A stretch of 9,878 bases of DNA, taken from Verrucomicrobiota bacterium. GTDB taxonomy: Bacteria > Verrucomicrobiota > Verrucomicrobiae > Chthoniobacterales > UBA10450. Position numbers and translations under genes: made by a program. Under the pieces are notes generated by a model. It had not been told where the DNA came from, did not search any database, and worked only from the letters and a program-made list of their open reading frames with translations. This document shows, in pieces, positions 2,686 through 9,703 of this stretch (position 1 is the stretch's first letter; each line of letters opens with the position of its first letter). The stretch is taken from the NCBI GenBank assembly GCA_005887855.1, contig VBQB01000153.1:1-9878 (forward strand), read 5' to 3'.

Positions 2686-3642
2686 TCACACAATCGCGCC
2701 GCCGCAGCTTGAGCCAGCGCCTGCGGTGCAACCGAAGCAGTGGTCGCCGGTCATGATCTCACGATTGTCGATCGCATCGGGATCCAGATCCCAGAGAAAA
2801 AGTGCCCGCCCATTCACCCATTGCATGTCGAGTTGTTGATTAAAATCGCAGTCGTAAACCTCGCCGCGCCATCCCACACTCAGGGTGTTGCGGCACATGA
2901 GACCGTCAATGGTCGCGGGATTAAACGCGCTAATGAGCAATTCCATATATTCCTCGAGCTTGTCGTTATGGCGCAGGTAAGCCGCGAAACGGCCAATGGG
3001 AAGATTGGTAATGCTGTAAAGTTTGTTAAATACGATACCGAAATGGCCTTTCAGCTCGCGTTTATAATCCGACTCGAGTTCTGTCTGCTTGCCTGGCAAA
3101 AACGCGCCGACGGGATTATAAACGAGATTCAGTGGCAACTCCGGATCGATGCCGTAGCCTAACGAGTTGAGGCGTTGCAAGGCAGCGATGCTCCCATCAA
3201 ATACGCCTTCGCCGCGTTGCATGTTCACATTCTCTGGTGTGTAACACGGCATTGACGCGATGATCTCGACTTTGTGTTTTGCGAGAAATTCCGGCACGTC
3301 TTCGTAGCCAGGATCGAGCAAGATGGTTAAGTTGCATCGATCAATGACGTGACGCGGGCTTTCGAGCGTTTTCACACGCTCGATGAAATAACGAAAATCT
3401 GGAATCATTTCCGGCGCGCCGCCCGTAAGATCGACAACTGGTATCTCGGTTCTACTCAGCCACTCGAGGACGCGATCAATTGTCTCGTGCGTCATAATCT
3501 CCTTGCGCTTCGGTCCGGCGTTCACGTGGCAATGCGCGCATGTGAGATTGCAGAGCTTGCCAACGTTGACCTGAAGAATCTCAGGCCGCCCGCGACGAAG
3601 TGAGATCGAATATTCCTCCAGTTTTTGCGCGAACTTGCTCAT
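2686..3642 (-). CDS. arsS: Arsenosugar biosynthesis radical SAM protein ArsS
   Basis: A radical SAM enzyme. In the known ArsM/ArsS pathway of cyanobacteria it adds a 5'-deoxyadenosyl group from SAM to methylated arsenic, giving the precursor of dimethylarsinoyl riboside. The N-terminal CxxxCxxC motif is LCNLTCAHCHVNAGP (C31, C35, C38 counted from the ATG) and binds the [4Fe-4S] cluster. DLTGGAPEM near residue 73 is the SAM-binding GGxPE-like motif. MPCY, LMCRNTLSVGW and YDCDFNQ follow, and the protein ends with the family's cysteine-rich signature HCFGCTAGAGSSCGG. The 318 residues match the usual size. ATG at 3642 is used here; a GTG three bases upstream (3645) is equally possible. The gene starts 12 bases after the arsM stop, with TAGGTG almost touching the start, so translation probably depends on arsM. 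It is the last gene of the unit. Confidence 0.92.
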   Translation of the reverse strand: MSKFAQKLEEYSISLRRGRPEILQVNVGKLCNLTCAHCHVNAGPKRKEIMTHETIDRVLEWLSRTEIPVVDLTGGAPEMIPDFRYFIERVKTLESPRHVIDRCNLTILLDPGYEDVPEFLAKHKVEIIASMPCYTPENVNMQRGEGVFDGSIAALQRLNSLGYGIDPELPLNLVYNPVGAFLPGKQTELESDYKRELKGHFGIVFNKLYSITNLPIGRFAAYLRHNDKLEEYMELLISAFNPATIDGLMCRNTLSVGWRGEVYDCDFNQQLDMQWVNGRALFLWDLDPDAIDNREIMTGDHCFGCTAGAGSSCGGAIV

Positions 3643-3654
3643 CACCTATGAAAA

Positions 3655-4737
3655 TCAGCAGCAATTGCCGCCATCGCAGCACGTGTTGTTGGCTTTCGTG
3701 GTCACGTCGTAATCCTGGCCTTTGGTTGCCTTCGGATGCCGCAAAGAGGTGCGCGAACAATCGAACGGCTTTGCTTCGGCCGGCGGCACATCGACAATCG
3801 GCTCGACGAATTCAAAAAACTTAGAATACGGCGCCTTCTTGTAGAGATTGTAAGTCTTGTCGCAAACGGCGTAGCGCTTGCCGCGCTCCATCCGATGATT
3901 GTCGTCATCGAGCACTTCCTTGAACGGGCCGCGATAAATCACGGCCTGGTTTCGCTCGAAACATTCGCCCTGCTTTCCTTTGAACGCCTCTATGGTAACG
4001 GAACGAAACTCGATTCCTTGTACCGTGCGCCTCAACGCCCCTGAAATACAACCGCTCCAAAGTTCCAGATCATCTTGCAACTCGTCCGGTACAGGTTCGT
4101 CGCTCACGATGTCGCAAATCACAGCGCGGCCGCCCTTTCTAAGAACGCGAAAGATTTCCTCGAATAGTTGTCTCTTCGATTTCGGTTCAACCAGATTAAG
4201 CACGCAATTGGATACGACGACGTCAATCGAATCGCTCGCTACGAGTGGATACTTCACTCGCAATTCCTGCGCCAATTCATCCGCGGCTAGAAATGAAGTC
4301 GCGTTTGTAATCGGACTGCGCTCAAGTTCCTGATCGAGTCGTTCCAAATCGAGCGCGAGATCCTGAATGCGACCTTTTCGGAATTCCACATTTGCATAAC
4401 CGGTGCGATTCGCGACGATCGGCGCGTTGCGGCGGGCGACCTCGAGCATTTCATCGGTCATATCGATCCCAATGACTTTGCCTTTCGGCCCAACGATCTG
4501 CGCGGCAATGAAGCAAATTTTGCCCGTGCCACTGCCCAGATCGAGAACGGTTTCGCCTTCACGCAGATAACGGGAGGGATCGCCGCAGCCGTAATCGCGC
4601 TCGATCACTTCCGACGGAATGACTTTGAGATATTCAGATTCGTAATTGACCGGGCAACAAAGCTCCGTTTCCGGCGATTTCGCGCTGGCAGCGTAACGCT
4701 CCCTCACAATGGTTTCAGTGCGATGGCGCTCAATCAT
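3655..4737 (-). CDS. arsM: ArsM-type arsenite S-adenosylmethionine methyltransferase with Cys-rich tail
   Basis: This enzyme transfers methyl groups from SAM to As(III), the first step of arsenosugar synthesis. SAM motif I is VLDLGSGTGK at 64-73 and the acidic motif is GIDMTDEML at 90-98. The arsenic-binding cysteines are present: C51 (YGCGDP), C178 (SNCVLNL) and C230 (SGCISGAL) correspond to the three catalytic cysteines of characterised ArsM/AS3MT. C27-C28 probably match the extra N-terminal cysteine. Residues about 127-168 are an insertion relative to short ArsM proteins, which I recall as typical of the arsenosugar-linked form. A C-terminal domain (AVIYRGPFKEVLDDD, AVCDKTYNL, FDCSR) ends in the tail CCDGGNCC at 353-360, a likely metalloid-binding site. 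The 360 residues are consistent with the long form. The ATG at 4737 is the only start before an in-frame stop at 4771-4773; no Shine-Dalgarno is visible. Confidence 0.92.
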   Translation of the reverse strand: MIERHRTETIVRERYAASAKSPETELCCPVNYESEYLKVIPSEVIERDYGCGDPSRYLREGETVLDLGSGTGKICFIAAQIVGPKGKVIGIDMTDEMLEVARRNAPIVANRTGYANVEFRKGRIQDLALDLERLDQELERSPITNATSFLAADELAQELRVKYPLVASDSIDVVVSNCVLNLVEPKSKRQLFEEIFRVLRKGGRAVICDIVSDEPVPDELQDDLELWSGCISGALRRTVQGIEFRSVTIEAFKGKQGECFERNQAVIYRGPFKEVLDDDNHRMERGKRYAVCDKTYNLYKKAPYSKFFEFVEPIVDVPPAEAKPFDCSRTSLRHPKATKGQDYDVTTKANNTCCDGGNCC

Positions 4738-4821
4738 GTCGATGCGACGCTTTGGCGTAAGAAGCGAATCTCATCACCAGTCGCGAATTTACAAGTGCAG
4801 AAGCGTGGCATGATCTCACTC

Positions 4822-4841
4822 AAATTATCGATCGACAATTT
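4822..4841. promoter_or_regulatory. 20-bp near-perfect palindrome upstream of arsM; candidate operator
   Basis: AAATTATCGATCGACAATTT is symmetric in 9 of 10 base pairs; the only break is A4827 opposite C4836. It lies in the 114-base gap (4738-4851) between the second reductase and arsM, the only sizeable gap in an otherwise tightly packed unit. With no spacer at the centre it would be a poor RNA hairpin and fits a dimeric DNA-binding protein better. On the - strand GATAAT (4829-4824) overlaps it and resembles a -10 box, but I find no good -35. An internal, arsenic-responsive promoter for arsM-arsS is possible. No regulator gene is in the window. Confidence 0.35.
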
Positions 4842-4851
4842 CGGAATCCTG

Positions 4852-6276
4852 CTACTCCTCCGCGCGCGCGAACGGATGACCACCCAGTTTGCGACAGAGC
4901 GCGTCACCAATCTCCGAGACAATCTCGATCTTCGTCGGGTGATAATATTCCGCGTCCTCGAGTTGATGCACGGTATGCTGATGATCGATCGCGTAGGCCG
5001 GAAGATGGATCAGATTACTCGCATCGTCGCAAAGCAAACCTGCGCTGAGAAGACGGGCGCTTTTTGCATCCGCGGAAAATTCACCAAAGCCGAAATCGTC
5101 GCCAGCCAAATGCAGCTTCCCAACGTCACGACTCTCTGTTGAGGCAGTGACGAGTCTGTGCCCGGTCTTTTCCGCATCGGCCGGTTTCATTCCCGCGAAA
5201 GCAAATTCGGGGTCGGAGAAAATAACCTGAATATTTGAGCGTTTCCGCCATTTGTGGTTGCGATCGGTCACCGCGTTTTCGGCCGCGATGCCCGCCTCGA
5301 TATGCGCATGATGAACAACCATCCGCCTTCCACCCACATCGCCTGCGGCAAAGATGTGGTGGTGGTCGCGCACGCGCATGTCATCGGCAATCTCCAGCGA
5401 TCCGTTTTTATCTAAGCAAATTCCGGCAGCGTCGAGGTGCAGATCGTCAGTATCTGGACGTCGCCCCGTAGCCATCAAAACTTTTTCGCTAATGATCGGT
5501 TCGTAACCATGCGGCCCTTCCGTTCCGACTTCGAAGAAACCGTCGGAATCGCGCGCCATGCGGACAACCTTCCGTGAAGTCCGAACGCGAACACTTTCGC
5601 GTTCGTAGATAAAGGCGAGGCGCTCACCAAATTTTGCAGGGTAACGCGGCAGAATCCGCGAGTGCGTAACAAGCGTGACCTCCGAGCCGAGCCGGGCGTA
5701 GCGCAGGGAAAATTCAAGACCAATCGCGCCCGCACCAATAATCGCAAGCGATTCAGGAATGTGTGTGTTGCTTAGAATTTCCTCATTCGTCCAGACGCCG
5801 TCCCATGAGGAATCGAATCCTTCGAGTTTTGGCAGCGCAGGCACCGATCCGCTGGCGATGATCGCGGCGTCGAACGCAAAACGCTTGCCCTCGCTTTCCA
5901 ATTCGTGCGCATTCACAAAGAAGGCATTGGCGCGAATGATCTCAAAGCGATCGTCAGCGAGTTGCCGGATTTCCGCCTCGCGGTGGGCGCGAAACTGGGC
6001 GATCTCTCGATCTTTCCAGCGCACGATTTCTGCCAGGAATTCGTTAGGCCGCCGCGGTTCGACGAGCAACCAACCGTGACGACGCGCGTGATACATTGCA
6101 TCGATCGGTTCAAACATTGCCTTTGAAGGCATGCAACCGGCGTTGATGCAGAGCGACGCGCGATCGGCATTGTCGCCCATAAAGAAGAGAACCTTCGCTC
6201 CCAACTCATGTGCGGTGCGTGCCGCCGTTAATCCGGCCGAGCCGCCTCCAATGACCGCAATCGTTTTCTGCTTCAT
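4852..6276 (-). CDS. FAD-dependent disulfide reductase (dihydrolipoamide dehydrogenase-like)
   Basis: A 474-residue class I pyridine nucleotide-disulfide oxidoreductase. It has the FAD motif VIGGGSAG (8-15), the redox-active pair C43/C48 in CINAGCMPSK, the NAD(P)-binding motif AIIGAGAIGLEFSLRYARLG near residue 185, and the second FAD motif FAAGDVGG. The C-terminal interface domain retains H446 and E451 (HPTKIE), matching the His-Glu base of dihydrolipoamide dehydrogenase. It should therefore be able to run a full dithiol-disulfide cycle using NAD(P)H. The residues before the first Cys are RASLC instead of the usual GGTC. The start at 6276 is set by the GxGxxG motif and by the ATGA overlap with the TVP38 gene; the frame is open 56 codons further upstream, but that part is a shadow of TVP38. 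By linkage it may regenerate the thiol reductant for ArsM. The substrate is unknown. Confidence 0.87.
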   Translation of the reverse strand: MKQKTIAVIGGGSAGLTAARTAHELGAKVLFFMGDNADRASLCINAGCMPSKAMFEPIDAMYHARRHGWLLVEPRRPNEFLAEIVRWKDREIAQFRAHREAEIRQLADDRFEIIRANAFFVNAHELESEGKRFAFDAAIIASGSVPALPKLEGFDSSWDGVWTNEEILSNTHIPESLAIIGAGAIGLEFSLRYARLGSEVTLVTHSRILPRYPAKFGERLAFIYERESVRVRTSRKVVRMARDSDGFFEVGTEGPHGYEPIISEKVLMATGRRPDTDDLHLDAAGICLDKNGSLEIADDMRVRDHHHIFAAGDVGGRRMVVHHAHIEAGIAAENAVTDRNHKWRKRSNIQVIFSDPEFAFAGMKPADAEKTGHRLVTASTESRDVGKLHLAGDDFGFGEFSADAKSARLLSAGLLCDDASNLIHLPAYAIDHQHTVHQLEDAEYYHPTKIEIVSEIGDALCRKLGGHPFARAEE

Positions 6277-6944
6277 GTCTTCAAGATTGTTACGACGACG
6301 GTGGCGGCAAGGCCGACGCTTAGGAACGTCCAGTATTGCCAGCGGTGCTTCATCGCTTCGCCGCCGCCCGCGACCGAAACAGCTGCTTTGCCCGCGGTGC
6401 CGATATAAACATAAAGGAAAGTGCCGGGCATCATGCCGATCCAACTCGCCAGCACGTAAGGCCAGAATTTCACCGCTGTTAGTCCATAAAAGTAATTGCT
6501 CAGATTAAATGGAATCACGGGACTGAGCCGGAGCAGAAATATGAGCTTCGCGCCTTGTTGGCCGATCGCGTTGTCAATCCTTTGAAACTTGGTGTTCCTT
6601 CTTGCCATCGCTTCGATCTTGTCGCGGGCGACGAAACGGGCGACGAGAAATGCCAACGTCGCACCGAGTGTCGCCCCGCCGGAAACGGCGAGAAAACCTT
6701 TCCATAAACCAAACGCGAATCCGGCTCCGATAGTCAGGATCGCTCCGGGTGCCAGCAAGACGGTGGCAGCGGCATAAACGGCGATGAAAATGAAGATGCC
6801 GGCAAGGCCCATTTGGCCGACCCAGTCGTTGAAGCTTTTCAACCACTGCTGGACGGGAAGAAATTTCATCGCGAGGAAAAGCGCGATCACAATCACGGTC
6901 AACGCAATGAGCCGGGCGACTGCACCTTTTTTCTCGTTCCTCAT
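6273..6944 (-). CDS. TVP38/TMEM64 (VTT/DedA-like) membrane protein
   Basis: A 223-residue integral membrane protein of the SNARE-associated/VTT domain family. Hydrophobic segments lie at about residues 11-27, 47-66, 68-105 (two re-entrant or membrane pieces), 135-150, 160-185 and 203-221. Family motifs are LTIGAGFAFGLWKGF, GATLGATLAFLVAR, RLSPVIPFNLSNYFYGLT and GMMPGTFLYVYIG. Family members are linked to lipid scrambling or membrane homeostasis and are often found fused to, or next to, MerA/Lpd-like flavoproteins. Here the gene is joined to flavoprotein genes on both sides by ATGA overlaps (6944-6941 and 6276-6273), indicating strict co-expression. A transport role for arsenic compounds has been suggested by this type of context but is not shown by the sequence. 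Confidence 0.9.
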   Translation of the reverse strand: MRNEKKGAVARLIALTVIVIALFLAMKFLPVQQWLKSFNDWVGQMGLAGIFIFIAVYAAATVLLAPGAILTIGAGFAFGLWKGFLAVSGGATLGATLAFLVARFVARDKIEAMARRNTKFQRIDNAIGQQGAKLIFLLRLSPVIPFNLSNYFYGLTAVKFWPYVLASWIGMMPGTFLYVYIGTAGKAAVSVAGGGEAMKHRWQYWTFLSVGLAATVVVTILKT

Positions 6945-8395
6945 CGCCGCGTGCGCTTGTAGAGCCAGGTAAAGACTTTTTTGGCACGCGGTGTAAGTCG
7001 CGTTCTGTTGTATTTGTCGCCGGTTTTGCGAGCGAGCTCGGCAAATGTCGGATAAGCGTGGATTGTCGAAGCAATCGTACCGAGACCGATTCCAGCTTTC
7101 ATCGCCAACACAAACTCGTGTATGAGATCGCCCGCACGCGCTCCAACGATTGTGACACCGAGAATTTTATCGGAATCTTTTGCGGTCAAAACTCTGGCAA
7201 AGCCAATTTCTTCGCTCTCCACGACTGCGCGGTCGACTTCCTCGAGCGGGACAACGAATAGGTCGTATGCAATATTCGATTTTTGTGCCTCCCTCTCGCC
7301 GAAGCCAACGTGTGCAATTTCCGGATCAGTGTAAGTGACCCACGGTAGCACCGCGGTTTCGGTTTTCTGGCGCAGCAACTGGAGCGGCATTAAAATATTG
7401 CGAACGACAACCCGCGCGTGGGCATCCGCCAGGTGCGTGAATTGAAACGAGCCGGCGATGTCGCCCGCCGCGTAGATGTGTGGCTGCGAAGTCTGTAAAT
7501 ACTCGTTCACGATGAGGCCGCGCTTGTTGAACCGCACGCCGGCTGCGTCGAGGTTTAACTTGTCGATGTTGGGAATGCGCCCAGCTGCGACAAGCAATGC
7601 CTCTCCGTTGAGCTGAAAACCAGATCCGTCTTTGTGTAGACAATCAAGGCGCATACTATTGCCGTGGCGCGCGGCACTCTTGGCTTCGGCGTCGAACTCG
7701 ATTCGAACATCTTCGCGCTCCAGTTGGCGTTGCAGAACTTCCGCGACATCGCTGTCTTCTCTCGGCAGCAACTGAGATGCGCGTTGCAGGATCGTCACTT
7801 TCACACCGAGTCGTGCAAGCACCTGACCCAGCTCACAGCCGATCGGCCCGCCGCCCAGCACGATCATCCTTTCGGGCTTTTCTTTTAGCTCATCGAATAT
7901 AGTTTCGTTCGTGAAAAACGGGATATGATCGATGCCTTCGATTTGGGGAATCGCGGCGTGGCTGCCCGTGGCGATGACGAAATTTCTCGCGCGAAGTCGT
8001 TGGCCATCGACTTCGATTTCGTGCGGTGAGACAAAATGCGCTTCGCCGCGGAAAACATCGACACCCAGCGATTTGAACCGCTCTTGCGAATCGTTCGGCG
8101 CGATTTTCGCGCGTCGCGCACGCATTCGCTCAAAGACTTTTTCGAAGATGAACCGCGGCTCTTGTCGATCTAATCCCCATTTTTCGGATTCGCGAATCTG
8201 CTGAATTAATCGCGCCGACGAAATCAGCGCCTTGCTCGGCACGCAGCCGAAGTTCAGGCAATCGCCGCCCATCTTATTGCGTTCGATCAGCGCAACGCAT
8301 CCGCCAAGAGCGGCGGTTCCGGCCGCGGTCACCAAACCAGCGGTCCCGGCACCGATTACGGCAACGTTATAACGTTTTTGATCTATCGCATTCAT
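6941..8395 (-). CDS. MerA/Lpd-like FAD-dependent oxidoreductase, first gene of the arsenic unit
   Basis: A 484-residue flavoprotein of the pyridine nucleotide-disulfide oxidoreductase class. It has FAD motif VIGAGTAG (13-20), redox pair C46/C51 in GGDCLNFGCVPSK, NAD(P) motif IVLGGGPIGCELGQVLARLG at 178-197, and second FAD motif AAGDIAG near residue 315. The C-terminal domain has HAYPTFAE (446-453): Tyr448 replaces the catalytic His of dihydrolipoamide dehydrogenase, as in mercuric reductase. It nevertheless lacks both the N-terminal NmerA heavy-metal domain and the C-terminal vicinal cysteine pair that MerA uses to take up Hg(II). True mercuric reductase activity is therefore unlikely, although automatic annotation may call it that. 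The basic C-terminus (KRTRR) is unremarkable. The start ATG at 8395 is immediately before the Rossmann strand; no clear Shine-Dalgarno is seen. Its stop overlaps the TVP38 start as ATGA. Confidence 0.88.
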   Translation of the reverse strand: MNAIDQKRYNVAVIGAGTAGLVTAAGTAALGGCVALIERNKMGGDCLNFGCVPSKALISSARLIQQIRESEKWGLDRQEPRFIFEKVFERMRARRAKIAPNDSQERFKSLGVDVFRGEAHFVSPHEIEVDGQRLRARNFVIATGSHAAIPQIEGIDHIPFFTNETIFDELKEKPERMIVLGGGPIGCELGQVLARLGVKVTILQRASQLLPREDSDVAEVLQRQLEREDVRIEFDAEAKSAARHGNSMRLDCLHKDGSGFQLNGEALLVAAGRIPNIDKLNLDAAGVRFNKRGLIVNEYLQTSQPHIYAAGDIAGSFQFTHLADAHARVVVRNILMPLQLLRQKTETAVLPWVTYTDPEIAHVGFGEREAQKSNIAYDLFVVPLEEVDRAVVESEEIGFARVLTAKDSDKILGVTIVGARAGDLIHEFVLAMKAGIGLGTIASTIHAYPTFAELARKTGDKYNRTRLTPRAKKVFTWLYKRTRR

Positions 8396-8523: not shown

Positions 8524-8916
8524 ATGCTGTGGGTTCGGACGTTTCTGACGGAGTTGCATGCATGGCAATGGCTCGGGATTTTCGTGGCCCGATTAACAGT
8601 CGGTTCACTGTTCTTTCTTTCCGGGCGGGGCAAGCTTTTTGTCCCTGAACGCCGGGAACAAATGCGGCAAACGTTGCTGGAGGCGCGCGTTCCGTTTCCC
8701 GAGTTCAATGCCTTTTTCGTTTCAACAGTGGAGTTTGTGTTCGGTTCGCTTCTCTTGGTTGGGCTGGCAACGCCTCTCGCCTGCCTGATGCTCGGCGGCG
8801 TGATGATTTTGTATCTACCCGAGGTGCTTTGTTTGGTGATTCTTGCGTGGCTTTTTCTCTCCGGCCCGGGCTGGTTCAGCGTCGATCATTTGATTCTGTC
8901 TCGAATCCGCCTCTAG
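8524..8916 (+). CDS. Short DoxX-like membrane protein
   Basis: A 130-residue membrane protein. Residues 17-36 (LGIFVARLTVGSLFFLSGRG) followed by KLF match the first DoxX helix. Residues 65-85 (FFVSTVEFVFGSLLLVGLATP) match the second, with the characteristic glutamate. The C-terminus (VILAWLFLSGPGWFSVDHLI) matches the last helix and its GPGxxSxD signature. DoxX-family proteins are four-helix membrane proteins linked to quinone- or thiol-related redox functions, and most have no proven role. Between the second/third-helix region (LACLMLGGVMILYL) and the final PEVLCLVIL helix the usual loop of roughly 25-30 residues is missing, so this copy is compact. An in-frame TGA at 8500 rules out an earlier start; no Shine-Dalgarno was seen. 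It is divergent from the arsenic unit. Confidence 0.72.
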   Translation: MLWVRTFLTELHAWQWLGIFVARLTVGSLFFLSGRGKLFVPERREQMRQTLLEARVPFPEFNAFFVSTVEFVFGSLLLVGLATPLACLMLGGVMILYLPEVLCLVILAWLFLSGPGWFSVDHLILSRIRL

Positions 8917-8980: not shown

Positions 8981-9703
8981 TCATTCAAAGAATGCCTCTT
9001 TATTGGGGCGTAGATCGATTTCCAAGCTCCATGCGCTTCGGTCTTGTTGGATGAGATGCCAGTAGGCATCGGCGATCGCGTCGGGCTGGAGCAGGGGATC
9101 TTTCGCAGAAGGCTTGTAAGTTTTGCGCACCTTCCGTGTGTCGATCACGCCATCGATGATGACATGCGCCACGTGAATGCCTTTCGACCATAGCTCGACT
9201 GCGAGGGATTGGGCCAGGCCGCGCACAGCGAACTTTGCGCTGCTGAATGCAACCGCGCCGCCGCGCCCGCGTACAGAGGAGGTCGCGCCCGTAAAAATTA
9301 TCGCGCCAACGTGCCGCTTGAGCATGTCGGGCAGGGCTTCGCGGGCGCAAAGGAACGCGCCGAAGACGGCCGTGCGCCAGGAGCGCTCGAATTCCTCCGG
9401 GGATGTCTTTTCCAAGTGCCCGCCGAGTGAACCGCTGGCGTGCGCGATGAGAATTTCCACTGGGCCGAGCTTGTCTCGCACTTTACGAAATCCAGCTGCG
9501 ACTTGTTTCGCATCGGAGATGTCGGTCGGAACAGCCAGCAGCTCAGGTCCGAGCTCAGCGGCCAGTTTACCGATAAACGACGGCGAACGGGCGAACATCC
9601 CTACGCGACAGCCTTCCTGCGCTAGCTTCTTTACCAGCGAGGCTCCGAGTCCCGGGCCGACTCCGGCGACAATCGCAACACGTCTAGGGGACTTGTCGGT
9701 CAT
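8981..9703 (-). CDS. Atypical short-chain dehydrogenase/reductase (SDR) with Phe in place of catalytic Tyr
   Basis: A 240-residue Rossmann-fold protein of the classical SDR type. The cofactor-binding loop is GVGPGLG (14-20), D61 marks the adenine-binding strand, and IAHASGS (86-92) replaces the usual NNAG. The catalytic YxxxK is FSSAK, with F153 and K157. The Asn of the tetrad is replaced (TAVFGAF, about 111-117), and the serine position is occupied by GATSS (139-143). The C-terminal stretch HVAHVIIDGVIDT and the ending WSLEIDLRPNKE are familiar from an uncharacterised SDR subgroup that shares the Phe, so the change looks family-wide rather than a mutation in this copy. Ordinary Tyr-dependent hydride-transfer chemistry is doubtful, and the substrate is unknown. 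It is convergent with the DoxX gene (64-base gap). ATG at 9703 immediately precedes the nucleotide-binding strand. Confidence 0.85.
   Translation of the reverse strand: MTDKSPRRVAIVAGVGPGLGASLVKKLAQEGCRVGMFARSPSFIGKLAAELGPELLAVPTDISDAKQVAAGFRKVRDKLGPVEILIAHASGSLGGHLEKTSPEEFERSWRTAVFGAFLCAREALPDMLKRHVGAIIFTGATSSVRGRGGAVAFSSAKFAVRGLAQSLAVELWSKGIHVAHVIIDGVIDTRKVRKTYKPSAKDPLLQPDAIADAYWHLIQQDRSAWSLEIDLRPNKEAFFE

Follow-up and report, generated by a model that had tools for sequence, protein, structure and literature searches.

A MerA-like flavoprotein and a TVP38 membrane protein are recurrent neighbours of the arsenosugar enzyme ArsS in several bacterial phyla

Comparison of ArsS loci establishes a MerA-like flavoprotein disulfide reductase (Mer1) and a TVP38 membrane protein as recurrent neighbours of the arsenosugar radical SAM enzyme ArsS, in changing order and in several phyla. 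The locus at the centre of this comparison lies in a stretch of 9,878 nucleotides (the 9.9-kb window), and we read it as an operon of the arsenosugar type from an uncultured soil bacterium near Chthoniobacterales or Udaeobacter-like Verrucomicrobia, in which Mer1 would be a membrane-tethered reductase serving ArsM and ArsS. To the operon and the reductase proposal taken jointly we assign a probability of roughly 0.5.

The open reading frames of the window place all five genes on its minus strand. Mer1 (6941..8395, 484 residues) is a MerA/lipoamide-dehydrogenase-like flavoprotein disulfide reductase with the motif GDCLNFGCVPSK and a basic aromatic tail at its C terminus; it overlaps, through an ATGA, the gene for the TVP38/TMEM64 membrane protein (6273..6944, 223 residues; VTT domain at 1.6e-30), which in turn overlaps in the same manner Lpd2 (4852..6276, 474 residues), a second flavoprotein disulfide reductase with the motif SLCINAGCMPSK. 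A gap of 114 bases (4738..4851) separates Lpd2 from the arsenite methyltransferase gene arsM (3655..4737, 360 residues), and arsS (2686..3645, 319 residues) follows 12 bases later if it starts at the ATG at 3642, or 9 bases later if it starts at the GTG at 3645. The original prediction had described this arrangement of five genes on one strand, with two ATGA overlaps and gaps of 114 and 12 bases, and the sequence confirms every part of it. By eye, the Lpd2-arsM gap resembles the TVP38-arsM gap of another ArsS locus (L015). A scan for promoters and terminators gave no excess over shuffled sequence (3 against 3.7 and 9 against 9.2), searches of the window for RNA families and tRNAs returned none, and PADLOC, which covers defence systems, matched neither Mer1 nor TVP38 and gave a 19-bit partial match for Lpd2.

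ArsS is a member of its predicted family, scoring 443.4 bits on the curated arsenosugar model TIGR04167 (cut-off 300), with the radical SAM motif CNLTCAHC (CxxxCxxC) and a DUF3641 domain (PF12345, 1.1e-54). It lies beside ArsM, as in the arsenosugar pathway of Synechocystis (Xue et al. 2019; Cheng et al. 2021), and 5'-deoxyadenosyl dimethylarsenic would be its product; for the bacterial pathway, the parts of the literature consulted give no steps beyond those of ArsM and ArsS. The window differs from that pathway in adding Mer1, TVP38 and Lpd2. In the proposed scheme, ArsM would turn arsenite into dimethylated arsenic and ArsS would attach a 5'-deoxyadenosyl group to the trivalent dimethylated form, while later sugar steps would fall to enzymes encoded elsewhere. 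Family profiles run on the ten window proteins matched no arsR, arsC or pump family, and the profiles of TIGR04282, TIGR04283 and TIGR04169 were without a match in the window. What the original prediction described as lacking (arsR, arsC, an arsenite pump and glycosyltransferases) can be called absent from these 9.9 kb only. The further claim that the final product may differ for want of glycosyltransferases is too strong, because within 8 kb of ArsS relatives do carry such genes, with matches to the TIGR04283-type (GT2) profile at 22 of the 79 loci of our first set and to the DUF2064 (TIGR04282-type) profile at 15 of 79, and because the window is only 9.9 kb long. The CMD profile was matched over the same distance at five of these 79 loci.

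A feature beyond the original prediction is the loss of 26 residues from the window ArsM, where residue 236 is joined to residue 237 (near base 4030); the stretch is kept in all 119 other ArsM relatives listed (of 8000 scored). The claim that ArsM and ArsS together form the established core is weakened by this loss. Alignments with solved ArsM chains place the missing stretch after the last catalytic cysteine, and its absence leaves the methyltransferase domain incomplete. A further difference from the Synechocystis pathway is that the window ArsM, the one ArsM protein scored in this way, falls below the cut-offs of the three best ArsM models (NF040538, 300.5 bits against 500; NF008823, 188.9 against 263; NF038099, 109.6 against 400). 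It is possible, if rather unlikely, that the operon is decaying or that the contig is misassembled, with part of the ArsM fold gone. The restriction of the loss to the window protein is consistent with this, as is the close relative L001, where the Lpd2-arsM gap runs straight into the last arsM codons and nearly the whole of arsM is missing before ArsS. Against it, the window reading frame is intact, Cys 27, 28, 51, 178 and 230 remain, and the other close relative, L002, has a full-length ArsM; as regards decay, the window and L001 both come from metagenome-type assemblies, and their anomalies could be assembly errors. In the alignment with 4kw7, Cys 51, 178 and 230 fall opposite cysteines; we take them to be the catalytic ones, with Cys 27/28 standing for the fourth. 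Positions 27, 28, 51 and 178 are cysteine in all 120 listed ArsM proteins and position 230 in 119 of 120. Structure models were poor for both the window protein and an intact control (mean pLDDT 42 and 37, respectively, with 26 close sequences per alignment). On present evidence the window ArsM appears to be either impaired or misassembled. Methylation by this allele may be impaired, in which case ArsS may rely on methylated arsenic from elsewhere.

The evidence for recurrence comes from ArsS loci of several phyla, in which linkage was taken as a score of at least 300 bits for Mer1 or at least 100 bits for TVP38. Mer1 and/or TVP38 were found within 8 kb of ArsS at 20 of the 79 first-set loci, at 6 of 27 loci of Acidobacteriota and at 12 of 20 of Pseudomonadota; in a fourth phylum (that of G215), one of 12 sampled loci, L180, carries TVP38 with Mer1 in pieces. 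Against the proposed reading, the remaining 59 of the 79 loci have neither gene within 8 kb, where flanks of 7 kb on both sides are available at only 21 of the 79. The Mer1 pieces of L180 and the Mer1 of L015 (257 bits, cut by the contig end) fall below the 300-bit threshold, and L080 was dropped from the 79-locus count (ArsS profile score below 250). L133 repeats L067 and was counted in both samples, and L192, which repeats L041, was left out. The arrangement varies, being convergent in L003, window-like without Lpd2 in L017 and spread over several kb in L041, and this argues against common descent of a single locus as the full explanation of the linkage. Within the order, Mer1 homologues (E ≤ 1e-80) occur in 23 of 213 genomes, 18 of which have ArsS compared with 63 of the 190 others (Fisher p = 4e-5, uncorrected for kinship), and Mer1 and ArsS share a contig in five genomes.

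Such proximity could also arise if Mer1 and TVP38 serve membrane or general redox balance with no role in arsenic, such as scrambling lipids together with a partner that reduces quinones or thiols, and ArsS loci simply gather lipid and envelope genes. This we regard as a somewhat unlikely explanation, with observations on both sides. Fatty acid hydroxylase genes recur near ArsS at 15 of the 79 loci and transglutaminase-like genes at 11, and ArsS was not seen in 5 of the 23 genomes carrying Mer1. In addition, fusion of TVP38 (COG0398) with a pyridine nucleotide-disulfide oxidoreductase (PF07992/PF02852) is reported to be the commonest fusion of its family, and the sections consulted of the paper describing it mention no arsenic link (PMC10127716). 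These points are opposed by the strength of the linkage: among 40 genomes of Acidobacteriota and Pseudomonadota, 13 have a VTT domain no more than 10 kb from ArsS compared with 0.69 expected (∼19-fold), and the maximum in 1,000,000 simulated draws was 7; the 40 genomes scanned come from a group of 60 loci picked for their long contigs rather than at random. The Mer1-TVP38 pair is also present at ArsS loci of Verrucomicrobiota. In one of the 13 genomes (G341), the gene concerned is unmatched by the TVP38 profile. Should the arsenosugar be made into a lipid, this explanation would merge with the reductase reading.

The window TVP38 belongs to its family (PF09335, 106.5 bits; gathering score 33.9), and some ArsS loci (L072, L158, L160-L165) carry TVP38 fused to a reductase of this kind. 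The window has the same two families as the fusions described in PMC10127716, as overlapping genes rather than as a fusion, and linked to ArsS, a link that the sections consulted of that paper leave unmentioned. A search of titles and abstract openings in the mostly open-access literature gave no TVP38-ArsS link, and no paper joining three of arsS, arsM, TVP38 and arsenosugar was found there.

What Mer1 may do is suggested by its sequence features. Its best solved relative is the mercuric reductase MerA (PDB 5x1y, 1.8e-77; see also 4ywo and 1zk7), with which it shares the Cys-x4-Cys redox pair, also kept in the linked Mer1 proteins, and a tyrosine in place of the histidine of lipoamide and glutathione reductases (YPTFAE instead of HPTxxE). 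It differs from MerA in lacking the C-terminal Cys pair and, among its Pfam matches, any heavy-metal-associated domain, and in scoring 386.7 bits on the MerA model (cut-off 454.45); on the sub-cut-off score and the missing pair, we reject mercury reduction as its function. Mer1 is also below the cut-off of the dihydrolipoamide dehydrogenase model (376.2 bits against 408.8), and its best curated match, NF004991 (PRK06370.1-3, FAD-containing oxidoreductase), is only slightly below the cut-off (609.7 against 620), with a family name that gives no function. The same features hold across the ArsS-linked Mer1 frames when the true MerA of L164, which does have the C-terminal Cys pair, is set apart: YPT is found in 25 of 25 (24 as YPTxxE and L070 as YPTLAK), none of the 25 has CC within its last 20 residues, and their last 25 residues carry a net charge of +3 to +9, compared with -1 to -3 in seven Lpd2 frames.

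In the reductase reading, TVP38 together with the basic aromatic tail would hold Mer1 at the membrane, where Mer1 would use NAD(P)H and keep the methylated arsenical, or its carrier thiols, reduced for ArsM and ArsS. In its most specific form, the YPT-type flavoprotein, fused to or paired with TVP38, would be a membrane-tethered methylated-arsenic reductase that hands trivalent dimethylarsenic to ArsS, a speculative proposal that we consider unlikely in full. If true, it would supply a missing redox step of arsenosugar, and perhaps arsenolipid, synthesis common to several bacterial phyla.

The second reductase appears to have a different history. The original prediction had joined both reductases and TVP38 in one linked module, and the neighbourhood comparison upholds Mer1 and TVP38, which recur in several phyla, but not Lpd2, as a scan of the 140 other ArsS loci found no full Lpd2-type gene. 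Besides the window, Lpd2 was seen ahead of ArsM, or of what is left of ArsM, only in the two closest relatives, L001 and L002, whose contigs start within its last codons. In seven relatives (L005, L009, L013-L017), TVP38 lies directly before ArsM, 50-140 bases away and with Lpd2 absent, and a conserved five-gene order is accordingly rejected; in L009, which reads TVP38-ArsM-ArsS, the upstream gene is a fatty acid hydroxylase instead of Mer1, a point against the reductase reading. The window TVP38 has a shorter C-terminal tail than its relatives and ends where Lpd2 begins. Since TVP38 can abut ArsM elsewhere and Lpd2 was seen before ArsM only in the window, L001 and L002, Lpd2 was probably inserted late, at the 3' end of the TVP38 gene, in the window lineage, and it would be no more than an extra, dispensable source of electrons.

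That both reductases and TVP38 nevertheless form one conserved module, powering and moving the product, seems highly improbable and as regards Lpd2 is largely refuted. The ATGA overlaps that TVP38 shares with each of its neighbours speak for such a module, as do 19 proteins among the matches listed (P0001-P0019) that are 92-95% identical to Lpd2, compared as proteins only, and the presence of ArsS on another contig in five of the six genomes with an Lpd2 homologue (ArsS occurs in 81 of 213 overall). Besides the empty result at the 140 loci and the direct TVP38-ArsM junctions, it is contradicted by these six homologues (among 213 genomes of the order), none of which is accompanied by ArsM or ArsS within the surrounding 11-18 kb. 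Two of the six adjoin genes read as cytochrome bd subunits. The five-of-six co-occurrence, and the start of the L001 and L002 contigs inside Lpd2, count against Lpd2 being quite unrelated. Its best solved relative is dihydrolipoamide dehydrogenase (PDB 2eq6, 1.4e-49), with which it shares Cys-x4-Cys and the His-Glu motif (HPTxxE, here HPTKIE). It differs in scoring below the curated cut-off (241.6 bits against 408.8) and in its setting, in that no 2-oxoacid dehydrogenase family was found among the ten window proteins. It is likewise below the MerA cut-off (262.3 against 454.45), lacks the C-terminal Cys pair and reaches just 208.1 bits on NF004991.

Mer1 and TVP38, which keep appearing next to ArsS in distant phyla and are in some cases fused, offer a concrete candidate for a further step of the arsenosugar pathway. 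The probable Lpd2 insertion and the shortened ArsM indicate to experimenters which gene and which allele to avoid starting from. Soil Verrucomicrobia are abundant, and a silent organoarsenic pathway in them would therefore bear on arsenic cycling in soil.

The five minus-strand genes are present as the original prediction had described them: Mer1, a MerA/lipoamide-dehydrogenase-like flavoprotein (8395–6941), TVP38, a VTT-domain membrane protein (6944–6273), Lpd2, a second flavoprotein disulfide reductase (6276–4852), the arsenite methyltransferase ArsM (4737–3655) and the arsenosugar radical SAM enzyme ArsS (3645–2686). Their coordinates were confirmed, with ATGA overlaps at Mer1/TVP38 and TVP38/Lpd2 and gaps of 114 and 12 bases at the remaining junctions. 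One flank carries an SDR-family gene (8981–9703, minus strand) and a DoxX-like gene (8524–8916, plus strand); the opposite flank, all on the plus strand, holds a YCII gene, a methyltransferase gene, a small gene matching no family and, adjoining the latter, a putative sdhB read from its sequence. No RNA families or tRNA were found in the window. The small gene is also close to ArsS in 23 of 80 loci, so that the window is a chromosomal locus of a Candidatus Udaeobacter/Chthoniobacterales-type group. The closest ArsS genes (94 and 93% identity) belong to Verrucomicrobia bins AV96 (locus L001) and AV49 (L002), with records of Candidatus Udaeobacter and of Chthoniobacterales among the more remote relatives.

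The proposed association of Mer1 and TVP38 with ArsS holds in part: we have high confidence that the linkage recurs, although most loci lack the pair. Profiles were built from the first 80 ArsS loci and scanned on those and 60 further ones. At least one of Mer1 and TVP38 was found no further than 8 kb from ArsS in 20 of the 79 loci counted in this first set (mostly Verrucomicrobia, with contigs that are often short, 7 kb being available on both sides in 21/79), in 6/27 Acidobacteriota loci, 12/20 Pseudomonadota loci and 1/12 loci of the phylum of genome G215 (filed as Gemmatimonadetes); both lie within this distance in 7, 5, 8 and 0 loci, respectively. A VTT-domain gene was found within 10 kb of ArsS in 13 of 40 genomes (134 VTT genes) where gene number and genome size would predict 0.69, one of the 13 being G341, whose gene has no match to the TVP38 profile. 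Within the order of the window's organism, ArsS occurs in 18/23 genomes with Mer1 versus 63/190 without (Fisher p = 4e-5, kinship not corrected), and the two share a contig in 5 of those 18. Mer1 and TVP38 are fused in L072, L158 and L160–L165, convergent in L003 and split in L058, and such recurrent reshuffling favours a functional tie to ArsS. Counted against such a tie are the prevalence of ArsS loci without the pair, the TVP38 of L009, which has no adjoining Mer1, and the description, in PMC10127716, of the TVP38–reductase fusion as a general one. Both this fusion and the ArsM–ArsS core are already known; joint recurrence of TVP38–reductase with ArsS was not found in a partial literature search. 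One locus filed under an Acidobacteria gp4 bin (L014; ArsS 80% identical to that of the window) has a Mer1–TVP38–ArsM–ArsS arrangement like those of Verrucomicrobia bins and is, because of this resemblance, probably misbinned.

The five-gene order, which had been put forward as a module, did not recur among the loci seen. TVP38 is followed directly by ArsM, at a spacing of 50–140 bases, in L005, L009 and L013–L017, and a full Lpd2-type gene was found in none of 140 other ArsS loci scanned with profiles. The last 24 residues of Lpd2 precede ArsM in L002, and its last codons precede an arsM remnant in L001; both contigs begin there, so that the rest of Lpd2 is out of view. The window TVP38 stops earlier than that of relatives, at the point where Lpd2 starts, and the 114-base Lpd2–ArsM gap is similar by eye to the TVP38–ArsM gap of L015. 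Given this shortening, the L015-like gap and the layout in relatives, Lpd2 seems to have been inserted into the 3' end of TVP38. Nineteen listed proteins are 92–95% identical to Lpd2, and a close homologue (67–70%) occurs in 6/213 genomes of the order, with no ArsM or ArsS near any of the six in the fetched stretches (11–18 kb). The homologues of L098 and L100 adjoin putative cytochrome bd oxidase subunit genes (named from sequence), a possible hint at the original role of Lpd2, and that of L102 has a glycosyltransferase match ∼2 kb away. ArsS is on a different contig in 5 of these 6 genomes, which keeps a shared role somewhat plausible.

The window ArsS scored 443.4 bits against TIGR04167, passing the cut-off of 300. 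ArsM matches solved arsenic methyltransferases but does not reach the curated cut-off of any of its three best-scoring ArsM models. It lacks 26 residues directly after SGCISGAL, which in solved chains correspond to residues after the last catalytic Cys; the stretch is present in 119/119 other listed relatives (of 8000 scored) and in all 19 locus ArsM proteins compared (of 23 aligned). P0122, a relative that has it, is 98% identical to the window ArsM over aligned columns (91% by BLASTP). Predicted structures of the window ArsM and of an intact control were both poor models. At L001:60–200, the DNA of bin AV96 runs from the Lpd2–arsM gap directly into the final arsM codons, nearly all of arsM being gone through either deletion or assembly collapse. 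Together with the gap in the window ArsM, this points either to ongoing damage to arsM in this lineage or to assembly failure at this place.

The Mer1 set comprised 25 ArsS-linked frames above 300 bits, one true MerA being set aside. All 25 carry Tyr-Pro-Thr at the place of the His-Pro-Thr of lipoamide/glutathione reductases, and the Cys-x4-Cys pair is kept in 24/24 frames with the N-terminal part present. In the alignment of Mer1 with solved MerA, a MerA Tyr falls opposite that of Tyr-Pro-Thr. The terminal Cys-Cys of MerA is in none of the 25. The last 25 residues of every frame have a net charge of +3 to +9 and include between 1 and 6 aromatics; Lpd2 keeps His-Pro-Thr and has an acidic tail. 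The basic tail and TVP38 fusion suggest that Mer1 may act at the membrane, and an active site resembling that of MerA points to a metal- or metalloid-thiol as its probable substrate.

Other genes also recur near ArsS. In 15/79 first-set loci (L010, L015, L021, L024, L028, L033, L035, L037, L039, L040, L045, L050, L074, L075 and L076), a gene for a PHO4-family phosphate transporter is found no more than 8 kb from ArsS, either between it and ArsM or elsewhere nearby, accompanied by a phosphate-selective porin O/P gene in L035, L039 and L075. Since arsenate is a phosphate mimic, this layout may serve dedicated uptake or phosphate sparing. Within the same distance are a DUF547 gene in 11/12 loci of the G215 phylum (L173–L184) and a TIGR04169-like (peroxidase-like, CMD) gene in 16/27 Acidobacteriota loci, including L135, L137, L139 and L140.

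In the proposed pathway, arsenite would be methylated by ArsM. Cheng et al. are said to have reported in 2021 that the substrate of ArsS is trivalent dimethylarsenic. Mer1, at the membrane, would use NAD(P)H to supply this reduced form, and a 5'-deoxyadenosyl group would be added by ArsS, for which a radical SAM role is described in PMC12159101 and PMC8552651. NCBIfam lists TIGR04282 and TIGR04283 as arsenosugar glycosyltransferases; profile matches to them lie near ArsS in 15/79 and 22/79 first-set loci, respectively, and the later sugar steps may therefore be encoded elsewhere in the genome. We put the probability of this whole picture, with ArsM and ArsS acting alongside reduction by Mer1 and the sugar steps being completed from other loci, at about one half.
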